From IMG/VR virus record IMGVR_UViG_3300008120_000487, positions 1 to 34,910 of that record: DNA of 34,910 nt; one strand, given 5' to 3'. Both the position numbers and the translations under genes were made by a program. Shown piece after piece: positions 7,125 to 34,910 of this stretch (position 1 is its first letter; each line of letters opens with the position of its first letter). The DNA comes from a virus. Under the pieces are notes generated by a model. It was not told where the DNA came from. It ran no database searches and saw only the letters and a program-made list of their open reading frames with translations.

Positions 7125-7772
7125 CTATTCATCCAGTGCGTTAATCAACTTAGTTAACGCTTGAGCTCCTTGGTCTACAATTATACTATTAATGTCACTG
7201 TTAGGCGGAAGCGACACGCGGACAGCTTGAGGGATTGCATCCTGCAATCTGCGAGCTAACTCCTGTCCTGGGTTAGAGCCATCCTCTTTAGAATCATTAT
7301 CGGTTGCTATAACAACGCGACCAATCCCATCAAAACAACGGCTAAAGTGAGGCTTCCAAGCATTAACGCCAGCCACAGCGACAGCAGGATGACCAACAAG
7401 GGTCGCAGATATCGCATCGATTTCTCCTTCCACAATCAGCACCTCACGTACTGCATGGATGATGGCGCTTACGTTATATAGGTGGTGCTTCTGACCAGTA
7501 GGAATCATATACTTAGGGTCACCATCGTCGATACGACGGAACTTAAAACCAACTACACCAGCCTCAGTTATATACGGTATAGATAGATGGTGCTTGAGTC
7601 TGTCCTCATGACCAGGTGCTACCTCTTCAACATAGCCAAGCATGAATCTCTCAGCTCCATCTAAGATGCCACGCTTTTCTAGGTACGCCTCTGCTGGTGA
7701 ACCAGCAAGGCTAGCGTGATAAGACTTAGCAGCTTTGGTCCAAAGGTCTATGAGTTTCTGATTTGGTTTCAT
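7125..7772 (-). CDS. primase, Toprim-domain half (215 aa)
   Basis: Residues about 10-100 resemble the N-terminal RNA-polymerase region of DnaG-type primases (YLEKRGIL, GYVEE, LSIPYITEAGVVGFKFRR). Residues 109-120 carry the Toprim glutamate motif VLIVEGEIDA (Glu115, Glu117, Asp119), and VVIATDND at 153-160 is the Toprim Asp-x-Asp pair. The protein makes RNA primers for phage DNA replication. It has no zinc-binding domain of its own. That domain is encoded two genes upstream (8299-8628), with a proteasome-like gene between. The start is the ATG at 7772 with a GGAGAAAAG ribosome binding site, overlapping the previous stop by four bases. Confidence 0.88.
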   Translation of the reverse strand: MKPNQKLIDLWTKAAKSYHASLAGSPAEAYLEKRGILDGAERFMLGYVEEVAPGHEDRLKHHLSIPYITEAGVVGFKFRRIDDGDPKYMIPTGQKHHLYNVSAIIHAVREVLIVEGEIDAISATLVGHPAVAVAGVNAWKPHFSRCFDGIGRVVIATDNDSKEDGSNPGQELARRLQDAIPQAVRVSLPPNSDINSIIVDQGAQALTKLINALDE

Positions 7773-8302
7773 CTTTTCTCCTGCCTATGAACAATGAAAG
7801 GAGGAGCAGTATACACGTCATTCTTTGCTGCAATCTGCAACGCCTTCTTCCAATTAGCACCAGATGCGATAGCACCTATGGCATAGGAAGACCCAGAACC
7901 TAAACCATAGATGCCATCATCGCGAAGGAAGACTGAGTACGTATCATCTACTTCATAGATGGTTCCGTTCACAGCCATTAAGAATAAGAACTCATACTCA
8001 TCGGCTTTCTCATCATGAACAAATCCATTGTCACGCAAGCAGTCACGCATACTTGGTATCACAGTTGTAATCATGAAGTGATAAGTGTCTTTAATGTTAG
8101 TTGGTATGGCAGGCGGTTTCCATATATGTTGGACTATGTCGCATGGCTGGGTAGTACCAGCGCCAGCAATAAGGAACTTGCCACGCTTTGTAATCTTAGT
8201 TGTAATCGGGTGACTATATGGTCGACCCTTCTCGGTTGTAGTTCTACTATCGGCTGCAATGATGCAGCCATCTGGTTCTTGAATGCCAATGATAGTTGTC
8301 AT
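7769..8302 (-). CDS. proteasome/HslV-like Ntn hydrolase (177 aa)
   Basis: After the initiator Met, the protein reads TTIIGIQEPDGCIIAADSR. Thr2 becomes an N-terminal Thr1 nucleophile once Met is removed, and Asp18 becomes Asp17, exactly the HslV/proteasome-beta spacing. Lys36 (TTKIT) matches the catalytic Lys33 region. Residues 132-142 (YGLGSGSSYAI) match the conserved GSGS loop, and Asp162 (KNDVYT) fits the late Asp. At 177 aa it is the size of HslV (about 175), with no propeptide. It is a putative self-compartmentalising threonine protease. No HslU or other unfoldase is encoded nearby, so it may use a host ATPase or act alone. It lies between the two primase halves with four-base overlaps at both ends. 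A closely related Ntn amidase cannot be excluded. Confidence 0.85.
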   Translation of the reverse strand: MTTIIGIQEPDGCIIAADSRTTTEKGRPYSHPITTKITKRGKFLIAGAGTTQPCDIVQHIWKPPAIPTNIKDTYHFMITTVIPSMRDCLRDNGFVHDEKADEYEFLFLMAVNGTIYEVDDTYSVFLRDDGIYGLGSGSSYAIGAIASGANWKKALQIAAKNDVYTAPPFIVHRQEKR

Positions 8303-8628
8303 AGTGAAGCTCTCAATCTAGGTGGGGTCCAGCGACCACTAGACTTGCGACCACGACTGGGTGCTTGCTTCTTGGTTTCTTTGCCAATGTTTTTCTCTGC
8401 CCACTTGCGGGCTTCTGGGTATGTTAGATGTTCACGCGCCATGATTATATGGATACCAGAACCACGACCGTTACATGCATAACATACCCAGACACCCTTG
8501 TCTGAATTCACTGATGCAGATTTATGTGAGTCATCATGTACAGGACAGAGGATGGACTTCTCACCGCCAAGCGGTAGGTCCAATCCGTAATGACTAAACA
8601 CTGCCTCAAGGAATTCAGACTGATTCAT
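8299..8628 (-). CDS. primase, CHC2 zinc-binding half (109 aa)
   Basis: The N-terminal 60 residues match the DnaG CHC2 zinc-binding domain: Cys28-x2-His31 (ILCPVHDDSHKSASV), then Cys49-x2-Cys52 (WVCYACNGRGSGIHIIM), and the usual helix LTYPEARKWAEKNIG. This domain recognises the template trinucleotide in bacterial primases. The C-terminal 25 residues are a basic, disordered tail (KKQAPSRGRKSSGRW). There is no catalytic domain: the Toprim half is a separate gene (7125-7772). The stop overlaps the start of the Ntn hydrolase gene as ATGA. The two primase halves are presumably meant to act together. Confidence 0.9.
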   Translation of the reverse strand: MNQSEFLEAVFSHYGLDLPLGGEKSILCPVHDDSHKSASVNSDKGVWVCYACNGRGSGIHIIMAREHLTYPEARKWAEKNIGKETKKQAPSRGRKSSGRWTPPRLRASL

Positions 8629-8631
8629 TTG

Positions 8632-9012
8632 TTAATACCAATTCCTTTCCTGGTGGAACCTGTACGCATCACACCAAGTGTCATAACGATGTAGCACATA
8701 CTTGTGTGCTTCTTCTGTTTGTTTGAGTAATGACCACCCTGGTTTTGCCCAGAGTAACTGCCACACTCCACGTGCTCCACTCGACCTGTTGAGGGAGTCC
8801 ACGTTGTATCGGCTCTCCTTGTACGCTATTTCTAACGCACATCGAACCTCGCGTTTGTTGTCTGTGAACTGGGATATCGCAAACTCCACTCGGTCCTTCT
8901 TGTCTGTAATCACAGACAATCGTTTCTCGACTGTAAGTATTGGCGATAGCGCTTGGGCTGGTGTTGCCAATGGCAATACCATTCCAATCAGTGTCACTAG
9001 TACTAACCGCAT
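8632..9012 (-). CDS. secreted lytic transglycosylase-like (SLT) protein (126 aa)
   Basis: The first 22 residues form a Sec signal peptide (MRLVLVTLIGMVLPLA, cleavage likely after ATPAQA). The mature part carries ALEIAYKESRYN, with Glu66 in the position of the catalytic Glu of SLT transglycosylases and goose-type lysozymes, followed by SSGARGVWQLLW, the family's Gly-x-x-Gln-(F/L) segment. It would cut the glycan strands of peptidoglycan outside the membrane. At 126 aa it is a minimal catalytic domain. Its place in the replication operon, rather than with the holin and endolysin at 15036-15878, is unusual and suggests an early role such as wall remodelling or superinfection control. Alternatively it is a host-derived resuscitation-type factor. 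Confidence 0.75.
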   Translation of the reverse strand: MRLVLVTLIGMVLPLATPAQALSPILTVEKRLSVITDKKDRVEFAISQFTDNKREVRCALEIAYKESRYNVDSLNRSSGARGVWQLLWAKPGWSLLKQTEEAHKYVLHRYDTWCDAYRFHQERNWY

Positions 9013-9404: not shown

Positions 9405-9553
9405 TACAACTCAATGCTGAACCAAAAGAATAGTAGGTCTATGTTTATAGAATACCTATCAACTGAAAAACCAATAGCCACTCGCTTTAAGTTATAGCCA
9501 GAACAGATATAAAGCTTACCTATCTTTAGGTGTCCTGATTTGAATAGTGTCAT
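9404..9553 (-). CDS. small hypothetical protein (49 aa)
   Basis: I place the start at the ATG at 9553 because it overlaps the WhiB stop exactly as ATGA and its end overlaps the next ATG as TAATG. A longer frame to 9640 runs antiphase through WhiB and is unlikely. The 49-aa product is MTLFKSGHLKIGKLYICSG followed by a beta-rich region that ends in hydrophobic, aromatic residues (LLFFWFSIEL). It could be a small beta-structured or weakly membrane-associated protein. Nothing else identifies it. Confidence 0.55.
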   Translation of the reverse strand: MTLFKSGHLKIGKLYICSGYNLKRVAIGFSVDRYSINIDLLFFWFSIEL

Positions 9554-9810
9554 ACATACTCCCTTACATATATCTCTTGAAGAATAATCTTTCTTTGTCG
9601 CCTGATTGACCGACGTTCTGTTGGAGTTGTACCGCCCCACATTCCATGGTCCTCATGCTTAACTGCCCACTCTAAACATTCCTGCTTAACTGCACAACCA
9701 GAACAAATCTTTCTGGCAAAGCTGTAGAGTTCAACAGTTGATTCATCTGGGAAAAACGGTTCAATCCCTATCTCTCTACATAGCCCCTTGGTTAAGTCTG
9801 GAAAGTTCAT
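9550..9810 (-). CDS. whiB: WhiB-family Fe-S regulator (86 aa)
   Basis: All four family cysteines are present: Cys11, then Cys36-x2-Cys39-x5-Cys45 (KICSGCAVKQECLEWA), which bind a 4Fe-4S cluster. They are followed by the family turn HGMWGGTTPTERR and a basic C-terminal tail (RRQRKIILQE) for DNA binding. WhiB proteins are restricted to Actinobacteria and their phages, and act by binding region 4 of the primary sigma factor. The length (86 aa) is normal for a WhiB2/WhmD-like protein. The start ATG at 9810 has AAAGGAAA upstream. In phages such as mycobacteriophage TM4 a WhiB homologue affects the host WhiB2 programme and superinfection. A similar role is plausible here. Confidence 0.93.
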   Translation of the reverse strand: MNFPDLTKGLCREIGIEPFFPDESTVELYSFARKICSGCAVKQECLEWAVKHEDHGMWGGTTPTERRSIRRQRKIILQEIYVREYV

Positions 9811-10201
9811 TGGTTTCCTTTCGCAATGTTTTAGTTGTAAGAAGTAAATCTTCTACTTGTATCAAGTAGCCCTTACTTCTATTCGGTGGTATCTCGCAAG
9901 TTATCTCGCGACCGAAGTTCTTAACCGCGTACCATACATGGTCAGTAGGAATCATGACAATACTTTGCTCAAGAACAAATGCCCAATAGTCAGCTTTTGT
10001 GACAGATAATCCAGAAGGTTCCCAAGACTGGGACTTCATGTACCAGCACTCAACTTCTATATAAACATTATTAGTTTGACACCACTTGCGGTCACGCTTT
10101 ACTTCCACTGTCTTGCCATTGGTTAGAAGTTGTTCAACCAACTTCTCACCCTCACGACCGTATGTGAAATCTAAATCAAAGCTTGACTTGTTTACTTCCA
10201 T
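9776..10201 (-). CDS. PD-(D/E)XK-like nuclease family protein (141 aa)
   Basis: The N-terminal half contains FTYGREGEKLVEQLL, then KTVEVKRDRKW with a Glu-x-Lys pair (Glu33, Lys35), and NVYIEVECW (Glu49). SGLSVTKADYWAFVL follows. This strand-turn-strand layout with E-x-K and a following IEVE strand fits a restriction-endonuclease-like fold seen in small phage nucleases. The full catalytic Asp is less certain; Asp11 or Glu18 may serve. The C-terminal half is variable. It overlaps the helicase-like gene upstream and WhiB downstream. It may be an active nuclease or a structural relative. Confidence 0.6.
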   Translation of the reverse strand: MEVNKSSFDLDFTYGREGEKLVEQLLTNGKTVEVKRDRKWCQTNNVYIEVECWYMKSQSWEPSGLSVTKADYWAFVLEQSIVMIPTDHVWYAVKNFGREITCEIPPNRSKGYLIQVEDLLLTTKTLRKETNELSRLNQGAM

Positions 10202-11025
10202 TGGCTGACGGTCCTTGCTCTAAACAAATCAGCCGATGTGTTATAGAGAATCATCTTGCTTGCTTCCGCTGCCAGTGTTACATACTCTTCAGCATTCGGG
10301 TCAGCCTTGCCATGACGATTCTTAACTACCGCAACGCGGTAGACATTGGCAGTGCTATCCAGCGCCACGGATAAAACTAATTCTGGTAGGGCAGCAACCT
10401 TGCCCATCAGAGCTTTACGTGGCGCTGGGTAGTTTGGCTTACTCATCTTTTCATTCTCACTTACGTGATGCAGAACGATGAATGCTGTTTCGTATTCACG
10501 AGCCATGTAGTGAAAGGCGGACATTGCGTCGCGTAACGCTGTCCATTCGTTGTCGCTGGCTGCTGCGACGTTCATTAAGTTGTCTACATATACTGCAACA
10601 GGTGGAGCACCGTGCAATTCAATCCACGCTTCTATCTCTTCCTCGATGTCCTGCAAGGATGGAGCAGGGTCGAAGGCAAATCGAACGTGTGCTGCGCCTT
10701 CGGCTAGTGCATCTTCCAAGAGAACACTAGCTTCGGTATCCATGATTCTCTCAACATCGGACACATCTCTGTTCATAATTATTGCGCCTGCACGAGTCGC
10801 GATTGTTCTGGAATCAGAGTCAGCTGAGATGTATAACGCTGGAACCTTAGATGTAACTGCATACCACAGTGCAAGTAGGGTCTTACCGCCACCTGGTTGT
10901 CCTGCAATTAAATGCAGTTGTGCCTGACGAAAGGTAACTTGACTAGCAGTAAGTAGCGGTAAGACCTCTGGCAATTGCTTGCCAGCTGGTGATTCTACAC
11001 CAACTACTTGCAACAGTGAACGCAT
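10192..11025 (-). CDS. DnaB/RecA-like helicase ATPase (277 aa)
   Basis: A RecA-fold ATPase: Walker A at residues 41-50 (AGQPGGGKTL), a hydrophobic strand ending PVAVYVDNL at 142-150 as Walker B, and a later VVKNRHG (residues 233-239) that matches the arginine-finger region of DnaB-type helicases. FIVLHHVSE (residues 182-190) fits motif H3. The length of 277 aa is only the ATPase domain. The N-terminal primase-interacting domain of full DnaB is absent, so this resembles the small AAA_25/RepA-like helicases of phages. It probably unwinds the fork or loads other replication proteins. It lies between the unknown 11025-11483 gene and a nuclease-like gene. Confidence 0.8.
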   Translation of the reverse strand: MRSLLQVVGVESPAGKQLPEVLPLLTASQVTFRQAQLHLIAGQPGGGKTLLALWYAVTSKVPALYISADSDSRTIATRAGAIIMNRDVSDVERIMDTEASVLLEDALAEGAAHVRFAFDPAPSLQDIEEEIEAWIELHGAPPVAVYVDNLMNVAAASDNEWTALRDAMSAFHYMAREYETAFIVLHHVSENEKMSKPNYPAPRKALMGKVAALPELVLSVALDSTANVYRVAVVKNRHGKADPNAEEYVTLAAEASKMILYNTSADLFRARTVSQWK

Positions 11026-28323: not shown

Positions 28324-29261
28324 TATTGAACCACCTCGCCGATTGCGTTAGGGTCGCGAAGAATACGTTGAATAAGCCCAAGTACTGACTTGGTTGCAAA
28401 AGACTCTGCGAAATCGGGACGACTTCTAGCAAAGTTAAGTGCATACATTGATGGGTCAAATCCACCACTTGTCATTGATTCTGTTACTGTAGAGCCAAGG
28501 TCTGGGCTGGTTTTACCAGCACCCGCTCCAGCTCCAGCAGGCACAAGATTTCCTTTGCCTGGAGTTGTCGTAACTCTTTGGCTGGTAATGGTTGGCGATG
28601 CTTTAGCAGCAGCGTTTACGCCAGCAAGGTATGCGTCTACTTCTTCTTTGGTCGCAGTTCTACCAACCTCAGAAGTAATGTATCTATTTACCATACTTCC
28701 AGCTTCAGATGGGCTGTATTGTGTAGTAGAAATTTGTTTGTTTAGGCTAGTTCCATACTTAGGACCAGTACCACTTCCAGCATAATCTGACGCATCCATT
28801 ACACCGAGGTATCCAGATGGGTCTGCTTTACCATTGATGAGTGGTGGGTTAGCACCTACTGTTTGTGTCCAGTCAACTGCATCTTTCCAAACTGAGTTCC
28901 ACTTTGACTTTGGCACACCAAGTGCTGTTAGCCGTGCAGTAAACAAATCATATGCCTTACGTGCAGGGCTTCCTTTAGGAGCCTTAGCTGCTACAAGTTT
29001 GAACCAACCATAAGCCTCTGCTGCAGCAACGCCACGATTAGCAAACCCTGGCAATCCAATAGGAGGAATGTCCATGCTTGGATTAAAGGTTGGAGTGTTA
29101 GTTGTGCTAGTACCCTTTGGTCTGTTTCCAAGATTGGGACTTGATGACTTGCTTGGTGTTGGTTTAGGCGTTGGCTTAGGCGTTACCTTTGGCGTAGGCT
29201 TTGGGGTAGCTTTTGGCGTAGCTTTTGGCGTAGGCTTTTTAGTGTTCTTGTTCTCAGACAT
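28323..29261 (-). CDS. virion protein with TPKP-repeat N-terminus (312 aa)
   Basis: Residues about 9-37 are a Thr-Pro-Lys repeat (TPKATPKATPKPTPKVTPKP), a stiff basic linker or DNA/wall-binding tail. The rest is mostly helical: VAAAEAYGWFKLVAAKAPKG, then ARKAYDLFTARLTALGVPKS and a Ser/Thr-rich loop before SAGSM-type turns. The C-terminus (YALNFARSRPDFAESFATKS) is helical. No enzyme motif is seen. It overlaps the giant gene's stop (TAATG) and lies just upstream of the LysM protein, so it fits the same group of internal or entry proteins. Confidence 0.7.
   Translation of the reverse strand: MSENKNTKKPTPKATPKATPKPTPKVTPKPTPKPTPSKSSSPNLGNRPKGTSTTNTPTFNPSMDIPPIGLPGFANRGVAAAEAYGWFKLVAAKAPKGSPARKAYDLFTARLTALGVPKSKWNSVWKDAVDWTQTVGANPPLINGKADPSGYLGVMDASDYAGSGTGPKYGTSLNKQISTTQYSPSEAGSMVNRYITSEVGRTATKEEVDAYLAGVNAAAKASPTITSQRVTTTPGKGNLVPAGAGAGAGKTSPDLGSTVTESMTSGGFDPSMYALNFARSRPDFAESFATKSVLGLIQRILRDPNAIGEVVQ
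29154..29240 (-). repeat. repeats encoding Thr-Pro-Lys N-terminal tail
   Basis: Degenerate 12-base units for Thr-Pro-Lys-(Ala/Pro/Val) near the 5' end of the 312-aa gene. They are in frame, so their number can vary without breaking the gene. Confidence 0.7.
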
Positions 29262-32200
29262 TATCGGCTCACCACAATTTCTTCATTTAGTTCGGGTATG
29301 TTGTTCAACCATCTATAGGCAAAAGCAGCAAATTCATCCGATGCTGTCTGCAAGAAGTCGTAATGGAACTGAGAGAATTGAGCTTTCAATGAAAACTTTC
29401 TTTCGTCCGTGTTGATTGGTTGGTCATATGCTGTCTTGAATCGACGCGCTGCGTCGACCCAGTAGGCAATCTCTTCCCATTTGTCGCCACTCTTGTAAGC
29501 ATGAGCACGCCACTTGGTATCCTCAACAATCTTTTCAACTGTTGGAATCAAGCCTCTCCAATAATCTTCACGATTATTGTTGTATGCATCTGTCCAGCCA
29601 GGGAAATCTTTAGCAATTGAGTCAACCATCTTGTCGTACTCTGCCTTGATACCGCTGCGTTCATACATAACTGCTTGAGTAGATGGGATTCCGTACTGAT
29701 ACATCATGGCATCGCGCCATTCCTGTGCTTTCTGGTACTCAGCCCAACCACGACGTGCTTCAGTTTCTGACTGGATTCCTCCAGCGCCAGAAATTTTCTT
29801 ACGCTCAGTGATTGGTAAGTCTACAGTTCCTGGGAAATCCAATCTCTTGTAGATTGCTGCGATTTCCGTTGAGTATTCTGTATTGGTTGTTAAGTCGCTG
29901 TCATAGCCAGATGAAAGCATTCCAGCGTACTTAGAGTTAGCTCTTCCTAGAGATTCAAGTAATCCCTCGAAATTGCGAATAATCTTTATATCTTTTTGTG
30001 TAGCAGCAAGACCAGCGTTGTTGCGTTGGCTAGAACCAATCAGGGCTAGAGAGTCGATACCCCAGTCCTCAATCATCTTCTTTTGAGCTTTGTCGTAGTC
30101 ACCCTTATATTCTTCTACCAAGTCTGCGTAGTAAGTAGTTGCTGCGCGGGTTACTGGGTCAAAGGCAACTGAGATAGGTGCGCTGAACTGTGTTACAGCG
30201 CGAATAAACATCATAACGCCAGCTGCTTTAGCAGCCTGTCTTGGTGTTGGAGGATTACCTACACGACCATTTCTATCCCATTCTGCATAAGCAGTCTTCC
30301 ACTGAGCCATAATTTCATCAGCTGCTCGGTCAGAACCGTCTTTACCAAACATTAATTTAAGGCTGTCAGATAAAGACTTTCCGTAACCTGGGAAGATTGT
30401 ATTAAGGGCTGTGTCTACATAACCGCCACCTTGGGTTGGATAACCACCATAGATAACGCTTGACTCAAATACATCATCGCCGAGAACGTTACGCATTCCC
30501 TGCGCTAATTCCTCTCCGTGTATCTTCCATGGACCTACACCAAAGCCATCCTTGATTAACTCGGATATTGTTGTAGAACCAAACCAAGATACTGATGGGT
30601 CAGCTACCATGAACTCTAGTTGTTTAGGGTTAATGCGAACTCCACCACCGCGGGCATCTGTGTATGGCTTAAGAGCTCCCTGTAACCAACCTGGAATCTT
30701 GTCGTGCAGTGGGAACTTTACGCTTACTGGTGTTCCTGGTGGAACGTCCTTAATGCTTCTGTAAGTATTTCCATCTTGGTCTTCATAAGCCTCAAACTTA
30801 TCCATTGCTGTAGCAATGCTGTTATACCAATATGCATTCATTGGGTTGCGAGCCATTAGACGAAGCGCAACGTACTGGCTGTTGAAGAAAGCCAAGGGGA
30901 AGCTCATGGCATAACGTGCCATGTACATACCATTGGTTAGGCGACGTGAAGAATAAAGAGTTCTTTCTACGCGAGCAAGAGCATTTCTATATGCAATCTG
31001 GCGAAGCTCGTTGTTAACAACTAAGTCTGAAGGACTTATACCAGAGCGTTCTGCTGCATTGATTAGCGTCTTCATTTCATCACGAGCGTATGCAAGAAAG
31101 AGTGGGTTACGAGCCATTCTGTTTTCAGAATAAGCAAGAACCTTCCATGCTGCATCTAACGCACCAGATGCTTTAGCTAATCCCTTTTCAAGATTGTTCA
31201 AATCGCTGAGCTTTAGGCTTGGTCCATCAATAGACTCAAGCAAATCAAGGCGACCTTCAAGCGCAGCTGATATTTCTTTTGGCGTTACGTTCCTGCTCAG
31301 AATCAAACTACGCAATTCTTCGCTTGGATACATACGCATCAGCTTGTCTTGAGTTTCGTCAATCCATGCTGCAAAATCATCTTTGGTCATTGGACGACCG
31401 TAACGAGATTCCATACGGCGACGGTATTCTTTACCAGCTGGACTATATAACCACTTAAGCACATCGCCTTGTGAGTCACCACGAAGCATCATGCCAACAG
31501 GCATATCCAATTCATTACGAACCTGGCGGTTTGCTATGTGAGCAAGCGCGTTCCAGTATTCATCGCCATCGCTTCGCTTAATCTTTACGAATCTTGAACC
31601 ATCGTATCTAACACGGCGAGCAATCTCTGATTGCATAGAGGCTGAATAAAAGTTCTGACTGCTGTCTACTTCTGCCATATAAGCACCAACACCACGTTGG
31701 TTAGGGTCAGCTAGTCCAGCAATTGTGTATTTCTTACCGCTTGCGCTGGTAATAACTTCATCTTCCATGCCAAGCATCTTTACATTTTTTAGCTCGCCTT
31801 CTTGGAAGGCAATAGGAAGAAGCTTTTGGCGTTCTACTTCAATGAGCTTGGCATAACCATTTATCTCATCGGCAACTTTATTCAAAGCATTATCTGCAGT
31901 GGTGAACTCATCCAGGGCTCTTAAGTAATCGTCCTCAGCTGCATGATATGCAGCATGAACATCTGGGTTATCGCTCTTGGCAGCACGTGCTTTAAGTCTG
32001 TCGCGTTTAGCAGTTGCTTGCTTCAGTAATACTTCAGCATCATCTGCAACCTGCTCCGCTGCTTCTTTAATAGCAATCTTTGGTTCCAAGTCACTGCGAA
32101 ACTTCTTTATATTGTAGCGAGCTTGTTTTTCAATTTTACGAGCATTAAACTTTGGACTGCCAGGGACAAATCTTTTTAACCGCTCAGCACGAAGTGAGCT

Positions 32201-33745
32201 GTTGTAGAGGAAGTTAGACATCCCTGGTAGCGAATTACGCACAAGTTCAGTTGACTCAAGTGCCATGCTTGCACGAGCGATAGGGTCAACCATTGAGTTC
32301 TTTGGGATGTAAGCAAGGCGAAGCAAGTTTAGATTGCTAAATGCCATGTTAGCTAAGTCTAAGAACTCACCTAACTTAACACCGCCTGCTGCAAAGCGAG
32401 CTCTGCGAGCATCGGCTGGCTTTACCAAGCCCTCGCCAGTTCCACGCAAATGCATAATAACGTCACGTTCCAACTTGGCAAAGTCAAGCATGGGAAGAGT
32501 TTGTGCTTCGTTAGCAACAGAAATAAAGTTCTGGTGGTTAAGCGCACCGTCTTCTGGAATGTAACCGTTCTTAGCAGCGTATGACTTTAGTGTTGAGCGG
32601 TTGTCACTAATACGTGAATGCCAACTCTTCATACGCTTGATGGCATCATCGGTTGTACGAACATCCATCATCTCGGTTACGCCATAACGCTTAGCTAAGC
32701 GTTGCAAAACTTCTTGTTCAATCTCTGTCAACACAATGGCACGAGTGGTGTCATCTTGTGCTTGCAAATACTTATTGACCATGTCGCGCTTAAATGCAGC
32801 ACCTTCTGCGCCTTTAAGGAACAGGACTCGGTTGAGGTCAGAACGCAGGTCGTTAGCTGCCTCAAATCGACGTGGGTTAGAAATATTAATATGACCTTGT
32901 GGACGACCTGACCCTGTCCATGCAATGACTCGAATCAATCTATCGTAAGGCTCAGACTGGTAAACTTTTACTTTCCAAGCACTGTTACCGTCTTTGCCAA
33001 ATAGCTTTAAGTCACCAAACTGTGCTTGGTTAGCTATTTTCTTGCGGGCAAGATTAAGAGATTCAATTGATGCAAACTTACCTGGGGTATAGCTTTCAAG
33101 CACACCCATCTTGGTTTTATTTAAGAAGTCATCAAGTGCGTTAGCAAAATCTCTGTCAGTTGCTTTCTTAGCATCAATAACTCTTTGATAACGCTCAGTT
33201 AGCTTTGGGCTAAGTTCATCAAGGTTTAGGTCTTCAAAACTAGATATTGGCTTAGTAAGCTGAATGCCATAGTTATCTAAATGGTCAGCCTTAAGCGGAT
33301 TCTTTTCAAAGAATCTTAAGAATGCTGCTGTATCTCCACGCTCAGCAAGCAAATAATCTGCAACATCTTGGTGGTTATCCAGCCTAGATACGATTGTTGC
33401 AGTGCGGTATGGGTTAGCAGTTTCTGAAACCAATGGGTTTGAAGACAACTTGCTAACATCTTTTTCATTTACTAAATCATCTACAAGTACACTAAGCCCA
33501 GAGCGGGTACGCTGCTCGACAGGCAAAGCTTGGTCAGCCACAATATCATTCATCTGAGTGCGGAACGCATTCATGTCTTGCGCTGTGGTTATCTTGCTAG
33601 GACCGACAACTTTCTTGGTTCCTGCACGAACGGCAGTGCCAACGCCTTTTGTTCCAACAAGTGCTAAAGCCATATCGGTAGCACCAGAAGCAAAGATACC
33701 TAACCACTCATCACGAAACTCTAGCAAAACGGAAAGATTGGATTG
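29261..33745 (-). CDS. giant internal virion/ejection protein, main body (about 1,494 aa)
   Basis: The largest gene. The body is predominantly helical, with a clear coiled-coil zone (EKQARYNIKKFRSDL, KQATAKRDRLKARAAKSDNP, LIEVERQKL) and later aromatic-rich blocks (FFNSQYVALRLMARNPMNAY). Size, location in the virion operon and lack of enzyme motifs suit an internal ejection protein like T7 gp16. The frame is open to 33847, but its upstream residues are an Arg/Leu-rich shadow of the overlapping 33711-34043 gene. There is no good start: the first in-frame ATG is 33673, a TTG is at 33727, and neither has a ribosome binding site. The sequence becomes protein-like near 33745, where a +1 shift from the overlapping gene would give GNPIQ joined to LSVLLEFRDEW. 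I therefore regard this as the continuation of that gene. Confidence 0.8.
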   Translation of the reverse strand, partial: QSNLSVLLEFRDEWLGIFASGATDMALALVGTKGVGTAVRAGTKKVVGPSKITTAQDMNAFRTQMNDIVADQALPVEQRTRSGLSVLVDDLVNEKDVSKLSSNPLVSETANPYRTATIVSRLDNHQDVADYLLAERGDTAAFLRFFEKNPLKADHLDNYGIQLTKPISSFEDLNLDELSPKLTERYQRVIDAKKATDRDFANALDDFLNKTKMGVLESYTPGKFASIESLNLARKKIANQAQFGDLKLFGKDGNSAWKVKVYQSEPYDRLIRVIAWTGSGRPQGHINISNPRRFEAANDLRSDLNRVLFLKGAEGAAFKRDMVNKYLQAQDDTTRAIVLTEIEQEVLQRLAKRYGVTEMMDVRTTDDAIKRMKSWHSRISDNRSTLKSYAAKNGYIPEDGALNHQNFISVANEAQTLPMLDFAKLERDVIMHLRGTGEGLVKPADARRARFAAGGVKLGEFLDLANMAFSNLNLLRLAYIPKNSMVDPIARASMALESTELVRNSLPGMSNFLYNSSLRAERLKRFVPGSPKFNARKIEKQARYNIKKFRSDLEPKIAIKEAAEQVADDAEVLLKQATAKRDRLKARAAKSDNPDVHAAYHAAEDDYLRALDEFTTADNALNKVADEINGYAKLIEVERQKLLPIAFQEGELKNVKMLGMEDEVITSASGKKYTIAGLADPNQRGVGAYMAEVDSSQNFYSASMQSEIARRVRYDGSRFVKIKRSDGDEYWNALAHIANRQVRNELDMPVGMMLRGDSQGDVLKWLYSPAGKEYRRRMESRYGRPMTKDDFAAWIDETQDKLMRMYPSEELRSLILSRNVTPKEISAALEGRLDLLESIDGPSLKLSDLNNLEKGLAKASGALDAAWKVLAYSENRMARNPLFLAYARDEMKTLINAAERSGISPSDLVVNNELRQIAYRNALARVERTLYSSRRLTNGMYMARYAMSFPLAFFNSQYVALRLMARNPMNAYWYNSIATAMDKFEAYEDQDGNTYRSIKDVPPGTPVSVKFPLHDKIPGWLQGALKPYTDARGGGVRINPKQLEFMVADPSVSWFGSTTISELIKDGFGVGPWKIHGEELAQGMRNVLGDDVFESSVIYGGYPTQGGGYVDTALNTIFPGYGKSLSDSLKLMFGKDGSDRAADEIMAQWKTAYAEWDRNGRVGNPPTPRQAAKAAGVMMFIRAVTQFSAPISVAFDPVTRAATTYYADLVEEYKGDYDKAQKKMIEDWGIDSLALIGSSQRNNAGLAATQKDIKIIRNFEGLLESLGRANSKYAGMLSSGYDSDLTTNTEYSTEIAAIYKRLDFPGTVDLPITERKKISGAGGIQSETEARRGWAEYQKAQEWRDAMMYQYGIPSTQAVMYERSGIKAEYDKMVDSIAKDFPGWTDAYNNNREDYWRGLIPTVEKIVEDTKWRAHAYKSGDKWEEIAYWVDAARRFKTAYDQPINTDERKFSLKAQFSQFHYDFLQTASDEFAAFAYRWLNNIPELNEEIVVSR

Positions 33746-34043
33746 GGTTGCCCTTACCAGCAGCCATAGCTTGCGGTGTAAGCAACGCAGTCGATACGCC
33801 TTGCGTAATCGGCTGCACAACCTTCTCTCCAAAAAATTCAAGAGCACGCATTGCTGGATTTAAGACAGCGCCAAGTATTGGCTTCTTGCTTCCAGCTTCT
33901 AAAGCACCAGCAATCTTTGGCATGATTGCTTGTTCCACTTTACCGACTTTTGTGTTGTCGGTCTGCTGCTTCTTAAACTTATCTATCTTTGAGGTTGGAC
34001 GAGATACAGGAGTGTCTTCGTATAAATCAGCCCATAGACTCAT
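33711..34043 (-). CDS. N-terminal segment of the giant virion protein (110 aa frame)
   Basis: The ATG at 34043 has GAGGAGG upstream. The product begins MSLWADLYEDTPVSRPTSKI, then a basic KFKKQQTDN, an amphipathic helix (GALEAGSKKPILGAVLNPAM) and QGVSTALLTPQAMAAGKGNP. It then runs through IQSFRFARVS to a stop at 33711. The last about ten residues look unlike the rest, while the +1 frame continues with a normal sequence into the giant gene. Most likely this is the N-terminus of one about 1,590-aa protein, split by a true programmed frameshift or by one extra base (for example in the four-T run at 33726-33729). If the shift is real, a short 110-aa product would also be made. Confidence 0.75.
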   Translation of the reverse strand: MSLWADLYEDTPVSRPTSKIDKFKKQQTDNTKVGKVEQAIMPKIAGALEAGSKKPILGAVLNPAMRALEFFGEKVVQPITQGVSTALLTPQAMAAGKGNPIQSFRFARVS

Positions 34044-34610: not shown

Positions 34611-34618
34611 TTAGTTAC

Positions 34619-34910
34619 CTACTTCTTTGGAATACGTACTTTCGTTCCTGAATAAATCATCGAACCCTGCTTGTATTTCTTATTCTTTGTAAACTTAGGG
34701 TTCGCTTCGCGAATTGCTGCAAGAGTTGTGTTGTTTGCTTTAGCAATTCCAGAAAGAGTGTCGCCCTTCTTAACGGTATAGGTGCTACCACCTGCTCCGA
34801 TAAAGCGACCTTGTCCAGTGATACGTGGTTGATTGCTGCGAGATTTTGTTCCAATAACTTCACTTACTGGTTTTGTTTCTCCGCGCTTTCTAGCACCTGC
34901 TGGTTGCTTT
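34619..34910 (-). CDS. LysM-domain protein, C-terminal part (window edge)
   Basis: An open frame enters from the right edge and ends in TAG at 34619-34621. Its last about 53 residues are a complete LysM domain: TYTVKKGDTLSGIAKANNTT, REANPKF and SGTKVRIPKK, very close to the N-terminal LysM of the 472-aa protein. The visible part before it is basic and Gly-rich (ARKRGETKPVSEV, GQGRFIGAGG). The 5' end lies outside the window, so start and total length are unknown. It is a second LysM-bearing member of the virion operon and would bind peptidoglycan. Confidence 0.82.
   Translation of the reverse strand, partial: KQPAGARKRGETKPVSEVIGTKSRSNQPRITGQGRFIGAGGSTYTVKKGDTLSGIAKANNTTLAAIREANPKFTKNKKYKQGSMIYSGTKVRIPKK

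Follow-up and report, generated by a model that had tools for sequence, protein, structure and literature searches.

A predicted proteasome-type Ntn hydrolase of freshwater actinophages, encoded in the replication module or behind the portal gene

The window (i.e., the whole 34,910-nucleotide stretch of viral DNA analyzed here) carries, between two primase genes, a gene whose product is predicted to have a proteasome-type Ntn fold and is very likely, judging from its sequence and that of its relatives, a working Thr hydrolase. With moderate confidence, we read it as a small Thr-type Ntn hydrolase that would carry out ATP-independent intracellular proteolysis during infection rather than virion maturation. 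To our knowledge, phage proteasome homologs have no known function. As a kind, they are not new (PMC8665760; phrog_1040); what is new is the near-constant presence of the gene in the window lineage, the portal-adjacent position of most of its relatives, and the single relocation between modules that these positions suggest.

Gene neighborhood and predicted fold

The first-pass annotation had reported a 177-residue open reading frame at 7769–8302 without giving its strand; the frame exists as described and is on the minus strand. It belongs to the following set of genes.

7125..7772, minus strand: TOPRIM-type primase part, downstream neighbor (phrog_47, 3.5e-31; phrog_849, 8.6e-31)
7769..8302, minus strand: proteasome-like Ntn (Thr) hydrolase gene, 177 aa (phrog_1040, AlphaFold2, Foldseek)
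8299..8628, minus strand: primase zinc-finger gene, upstream neighbor (phrog_360 DNA primase, 1.8e-24)
9550..9810, minus strand: WhiB-like regulator (Pfam PF02467, 1.6e-15; phrog_472)
10192..11025, minus strand: DnaB-like helicase, same gene cluster (phrog_243, 3.7e-74)

ATGA overlaps join the Ntn gene to both of its neighbors, at 8299–8302 to the primase zinc-finger gene and at 7769–7772 to the TOPRIM-primase gene. The cluster also holds a resolvase and an exonuclease, with an endonuclease VII and a sigma factor further on, and the placement among DNA replication genes noted earlier is borne out by the primase, TOPRIM, and DnaB-like neighbors. Because WhiB is an actinobacterial-host marker in freshwater phage studies (PMC6802176; PMC10202952), the WhiB gene in the window points to an actinobacterial host. 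A transglycosylase-like gene (phrog_35836; 8632–9012, minus strand) lies inside the replication cluster, just before the primase zinc-finger gene, and keeps this place across the window clade. Elsewhere in the window, a 1528-residue virion-module protein (29261–33847, minus strand) has no Pfam match, its 1711-residue relative in the cultured phage F5 matching phrog_10618 (function unknown), and a LysM-like peptide at the window end (34611–34910, minus strand) adjoins a phrog_8200 gene.

Residues 1–175 of the window protein align to phrog_1040 ("peptidase HslV family") with E = 5.7e-27, and 9 of 9 diverse relatives tested also match this group. The Pfam Proteasome model (PF00227) matches 26 of 28 family members, with a best value of 1e-6, and gives 0.003 for the window protein itself, under the Pfam cut-off. 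Compared with the PDB, a profile built from 28 relatives found BPH (9e-10) and HslV (5e-7). An AlphaFold2 monomer model of the window protein (pLDDT 89, pTM 0.85) has helices H1 and H2 (residues 51–60 and 73–91) and helices 3 and 4 (residues 138–146 and 151–161), and a Foldseek search with this model returned BPH (5ovs; E = 4e-10, TM up to 0.78), HslV (TM 0.65–0.68), proteasome beta, and many phage protein models (TM up to 0.88). The predicted fold is thus the proteasome-type Ntn sandwich that the first-pass annotation had proposed. Its description of the protein as HslV-like holds for size and fold, whereas the nearest solved relative is BPH, followed by HslV; membership of HslV proper was rejected, the NCBIfam HslV score being 18.4 bits against a cut-off of 157.75.

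Active-site residues and selection

The residues expected of a proteasome-type active site were located in the window and counted among 204 distinct relatives, down to ∼28% identity.

8297..8299, minus strand: Thr2 codon, corresponding to proteasome Thr1, the nucleophile once the start Met is removed (T in 204/204)
8249..8251, minus strand: Asp18 codon, corresponding to proteasome Asp17 (D in 204/204)
8195..8197, minus strand: Lys36 codon, corresponding to proteasome Lys33 (K in 204/204)
8156..8158, minus strand: Gly49 codon, by alignment the likely equivalent of the oxyanion-hole Gly47 (G in 201/204)
7892..7900, minus strand: Gly135-Ser136-Gly137 loop, Ser129 region (G135 and G137 in 204/204; S136 in 173/204, T in 27)
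7808..7819, minus strand: Asp162-x-x-Thr165, possible Asp166/Ser169 equivalents (position 162: D in 86, N in 82, T in 26; T165 in 192/204)

The Thr immediately after Met, the Asp at proteasome position 17, the Lys near position 33 (Lys36, i.e., residue 35 after Met removal), and the GSGS loop (within GLGSGSS at residues 133–139) had all been picked out from the window sequence, and each is present, with Thr2, Asp18, Lys36, Gly135, and Gly137 invariant among the relatives, as is Pro64. The late Asp named alongside them is found in the window protein as Asp162 but is not conserved. Thr2 is preceded in the relatives by ATG, GTG, or TTG start codons; its invariance is partly favored by scan patterns beginning MTT, and relatives recruited via the portal gene alone, with no motif, have the same catalytic residues. 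Pairwise dN/dS inside the window clade is 0.04–0.13 (the comparison of the window with contig L054 is left out as an alignment artifact), which, together with the invariant catalytic residues, argues that enzymatic function has been kept. At the level of sequence, the catalytic features of the window protein are far beyond chance.

Distribution and genomic position

As to how widespread the family is in environmental phages, a question raised earlier, IMG/VR contains hundreds of relatives (348 in one scan, 199 in another). In the window lineage, the gene is present in 20 of 20 long contigs picked by their capsid gene. Each of 30 long records has exactly one Ntn copy, and the idea that window-type phages carry an additional one by the portal was rejected on this count. 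One record, L279 (IMGVR_UViG_3300027754_000069; 82688 bases), has two slightly different copies 42 kb apart; at about double the usual 41-kb length, it probably arose when the assembly fused the genomes of two related phages. One scan of a species-genome collection gave a single bacterial relative, in a gammaproteobacterial MAG (33%), and host origin of the gene is not shown by this lone match.

Among cultured phages, OX376640.1 (39.1 kb) and OX376641.1 (LanE43-AprF5, 38.9 kb) carry the gene and fit the "Ca. Planktophila" phages E7 and F5 of PMC10202952; the main text of that paper makes no mention of HslV, proteasome, or protease, and a literature search found no relevant paper on a Planktophila proteasome. 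Microbacterium phages and phAPEC8-like coliphages are also cultured carriers, and annotation of the phrog_1040 type is found in dozens of phage records, including phAPEC8-like, Vibrio, Moorella, and Geobacillus phages. The Ntn gene lies beside thymidylate synthase in the T5-like phage AAS21, beside ThyX in Pumpernickel, and beside WhiB in DSL-LC01; in LeeroyJenkins it is gp16, with a separate capsid maturation protease (gp25) behind the portal. The hosts of window-type phages are very abundant freshwater bacteria, and phAPEC8-like coliphages grow on E. coli K-12. With carriers in culture (E7/F5, Microbacterium phages, and phAPEC8-like phages), both the substrates and the need for an ATPase are directly testable.

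The position of the gene differs between clades. In the window clade, it is directly behind the zinc-finger primase gene in 65 of 67 non-redundant loci, with TOPRIM next in 63 of these and the contig end cutting the other 2. The sister clade has it after TOPRIM or DnaB, or elsewhere. In a third group, in which portal and TerL were identified, it is directly behind the portal in 70 of 73 loci. Loci found by the portal gene alone give a similar picture: among the 74 with enough sequence, the Ntn gene lies ≤100 bases behind the portal in 64, whereas in the remaining 10 the portal, a small gene, and a phrog_8200-like gene follow one another without an intervening Ntn gene. Three portal-selected contigs of 30–40 kb, which may be incomplete, have intact portal genes and no Ntn gene anywhere, and in phages that lack the Ntn gene no other protease was seen to occupy the slot behind the portal. 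The cultured F5 has the order TerL, portal, Ntn gene, virion genes. In F5-type phages, the Ntn gene shares its end with an overlapping, conserved 84-residue gene (contig L066, 20534–20788), which has no PHROG match and is a possible partner. The long wider-group contigs L362, L390, and L351, with an intact portal region and no proteasome-like gene, are a natural comparison set for the function of the Ntn gene.

Phylogenetically, the copies in the replication module group together as a single clade, separated from the portal-adjacent copies with support of 99/98. This suggests, as the simplest reading, one relocation from the head module to the replication module, the direction being inferred from a tree rooted at the midpoint only. 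The first-pass annotation had taken expression with replication rather than virion genes as an argument against a head-maturation protease; this argument fails, since in most relatives the portal gene immediately precedes the Ntn gene and the placement in the window appears to be a relocation. The move of the gene between head and replication modules is a caution against reading function from position.

Possible roles and known systems

That the phage encodes no unfoldase had been noted for the window, and the same is found more widely: no HslU/ClpX-type ATPase (AAA_2/PF07724) was detected in 15 phage records including the complete F5, while the same search gave a match in 14 of 14 cellular genomes. 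Since no HslV is marked for Actinobacteria in the survey table of PMC8665760, HslU is also unlikely as a partner ATPase supplied by the host. In the HMMER alignment, HslV and BPH have ∼9 additional residues in the helix 3/4 hairpin relative to this family; because helices 3 and 4 make the main ring-ring contacts (PMC8665760), it is uncertain whether the window protein, as modeled, would form a normal double-ring barrel.

In the reading that we favor, host methionine aminopeptidase would remove Met1, after which the now N-terminal Thr would cut peptide bonds with the help of Asp and Lys. The enzyme, with neither a propeptide nor a dedicated unfoldase, would most likely be an ATP-independent homo-oligomer (a ring or smaller) acting on substrates that are unfolded, short, or a specific protein set inside the infected actinobacterial cell, and its purpose would be host takeover or amino-acid recycling. 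This reading is supported by the early or nucleotide-metabolism placement of the gene in carriers from other phage groups; the variable Asp166 equivalent and the short helix 3/4 hairpin count against it, as does the portal adjacency of most relatives, since the slot behind the portal gene is usual for a prohead protease.

That slot is also the main argument for an Ntn protease that cuts the capsid, scaffold, portal, or an internal virion protein during assembly: the gene is directly behind the portal in most clade-3 and portal-selected loci, F5 has it between portal and virion genes, and no S78 or ClpP-type prohead protease was found in the 13 records searched. We nevertheless consider head maturation unlikely, because some phages of the group (10 portal-selected loci at this position, and the longest contigs altogether) are without the gene and LeeroyJenkins has a separate capsid maturation protease; moreover, the window clade has the gene among replication genes, T5-like and other phages hold it among metabolic or early genes, and a separate scaffold-like gene stands beside the capsid gene, whose product by inspection has no obvious N-terminal delta domain. 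It is quite unlikely, too, that in Nanopelagicales phages the Thr protease first served virion assembly behind the portal and that the window lineage later moved its gene into the primase operon, for a new role or still for the head. Were this so, the short hairpin at the ring-ring contact would imply that the subunits assemble differently from a double ring. A virion-assembly role would make this the first Ntn-type virion protease that we know of.

A protease that removes one specific host protein early in infection, in host takeover or anti-defense, would suit the strong purifying selection and the location of the gene among early or replication genes in a number of unrelated phages. We regard this as doubtful: no substrate is known, a defense-specific gene would less typically be so nearly constant within one lineage, and the portal adjacency of most relatives suggests late expression there. 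Very improbable, finally, is a small Ntn amidase or connectase-like protein ligase in place of a protease; the small fold and the missing unfoldase are in keeping with it, and the same family includes the ligase connectase, which demonstrates that the fold can act in this way (PMC8665760), but connectase is without helices 1 and 2, both of which are present in the window protein, and BPH and HslV are the solved structures most closely related to the latter.

Phage proteasome homologs have been described as PPH, AAH, and CPH by Fuchs, Alva and Lupas (2021; PMC8665760), and a Salmonella jumbo phage was reported to encode one with no accompanying HslU (PMC7823757). The window protein shares with PPH, AAH, and CPH the Group I (HslV/BPH-like) character, the Thr1/Asp17/Lys33 set, compact size, occurrence in tailed phages, and the lack of a detected AAA+ partner. 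With 177 residues and both H1 and H2 in the model, it does not match PPH, which has ∼140 residues and no H2. No AAH was found by those authors in Actinobacteria-specific phages (PMC8665760), whereas the host of the window phage is actinobacterial by its WhiB gene and the cultured Planktophila phages. Connectase, with H1/H2 absent and a two-helix insertion, was rejected as the family of the window protein on its helices H1 and H2. HslV (ClpQ) has size, fold, Met-Thr start, and GSG loop in common with the window protein, but no HslU was found in the phages searched and the HslV model score is far under its cut-off. The closest solved system is the beta-proteobacterial BPH (PDB: 5OVS, 5OVT, 5OVU), the best match by both profile and fold, which has a free N-terminal Thr, as predicted for the window family, and differs in its longer helix 3/4 hairpin and in sequence (∼20% identity). 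With respect to phrog_1040, the window protein represents one freshwater actinophage branch, and nothing excludes its membership.
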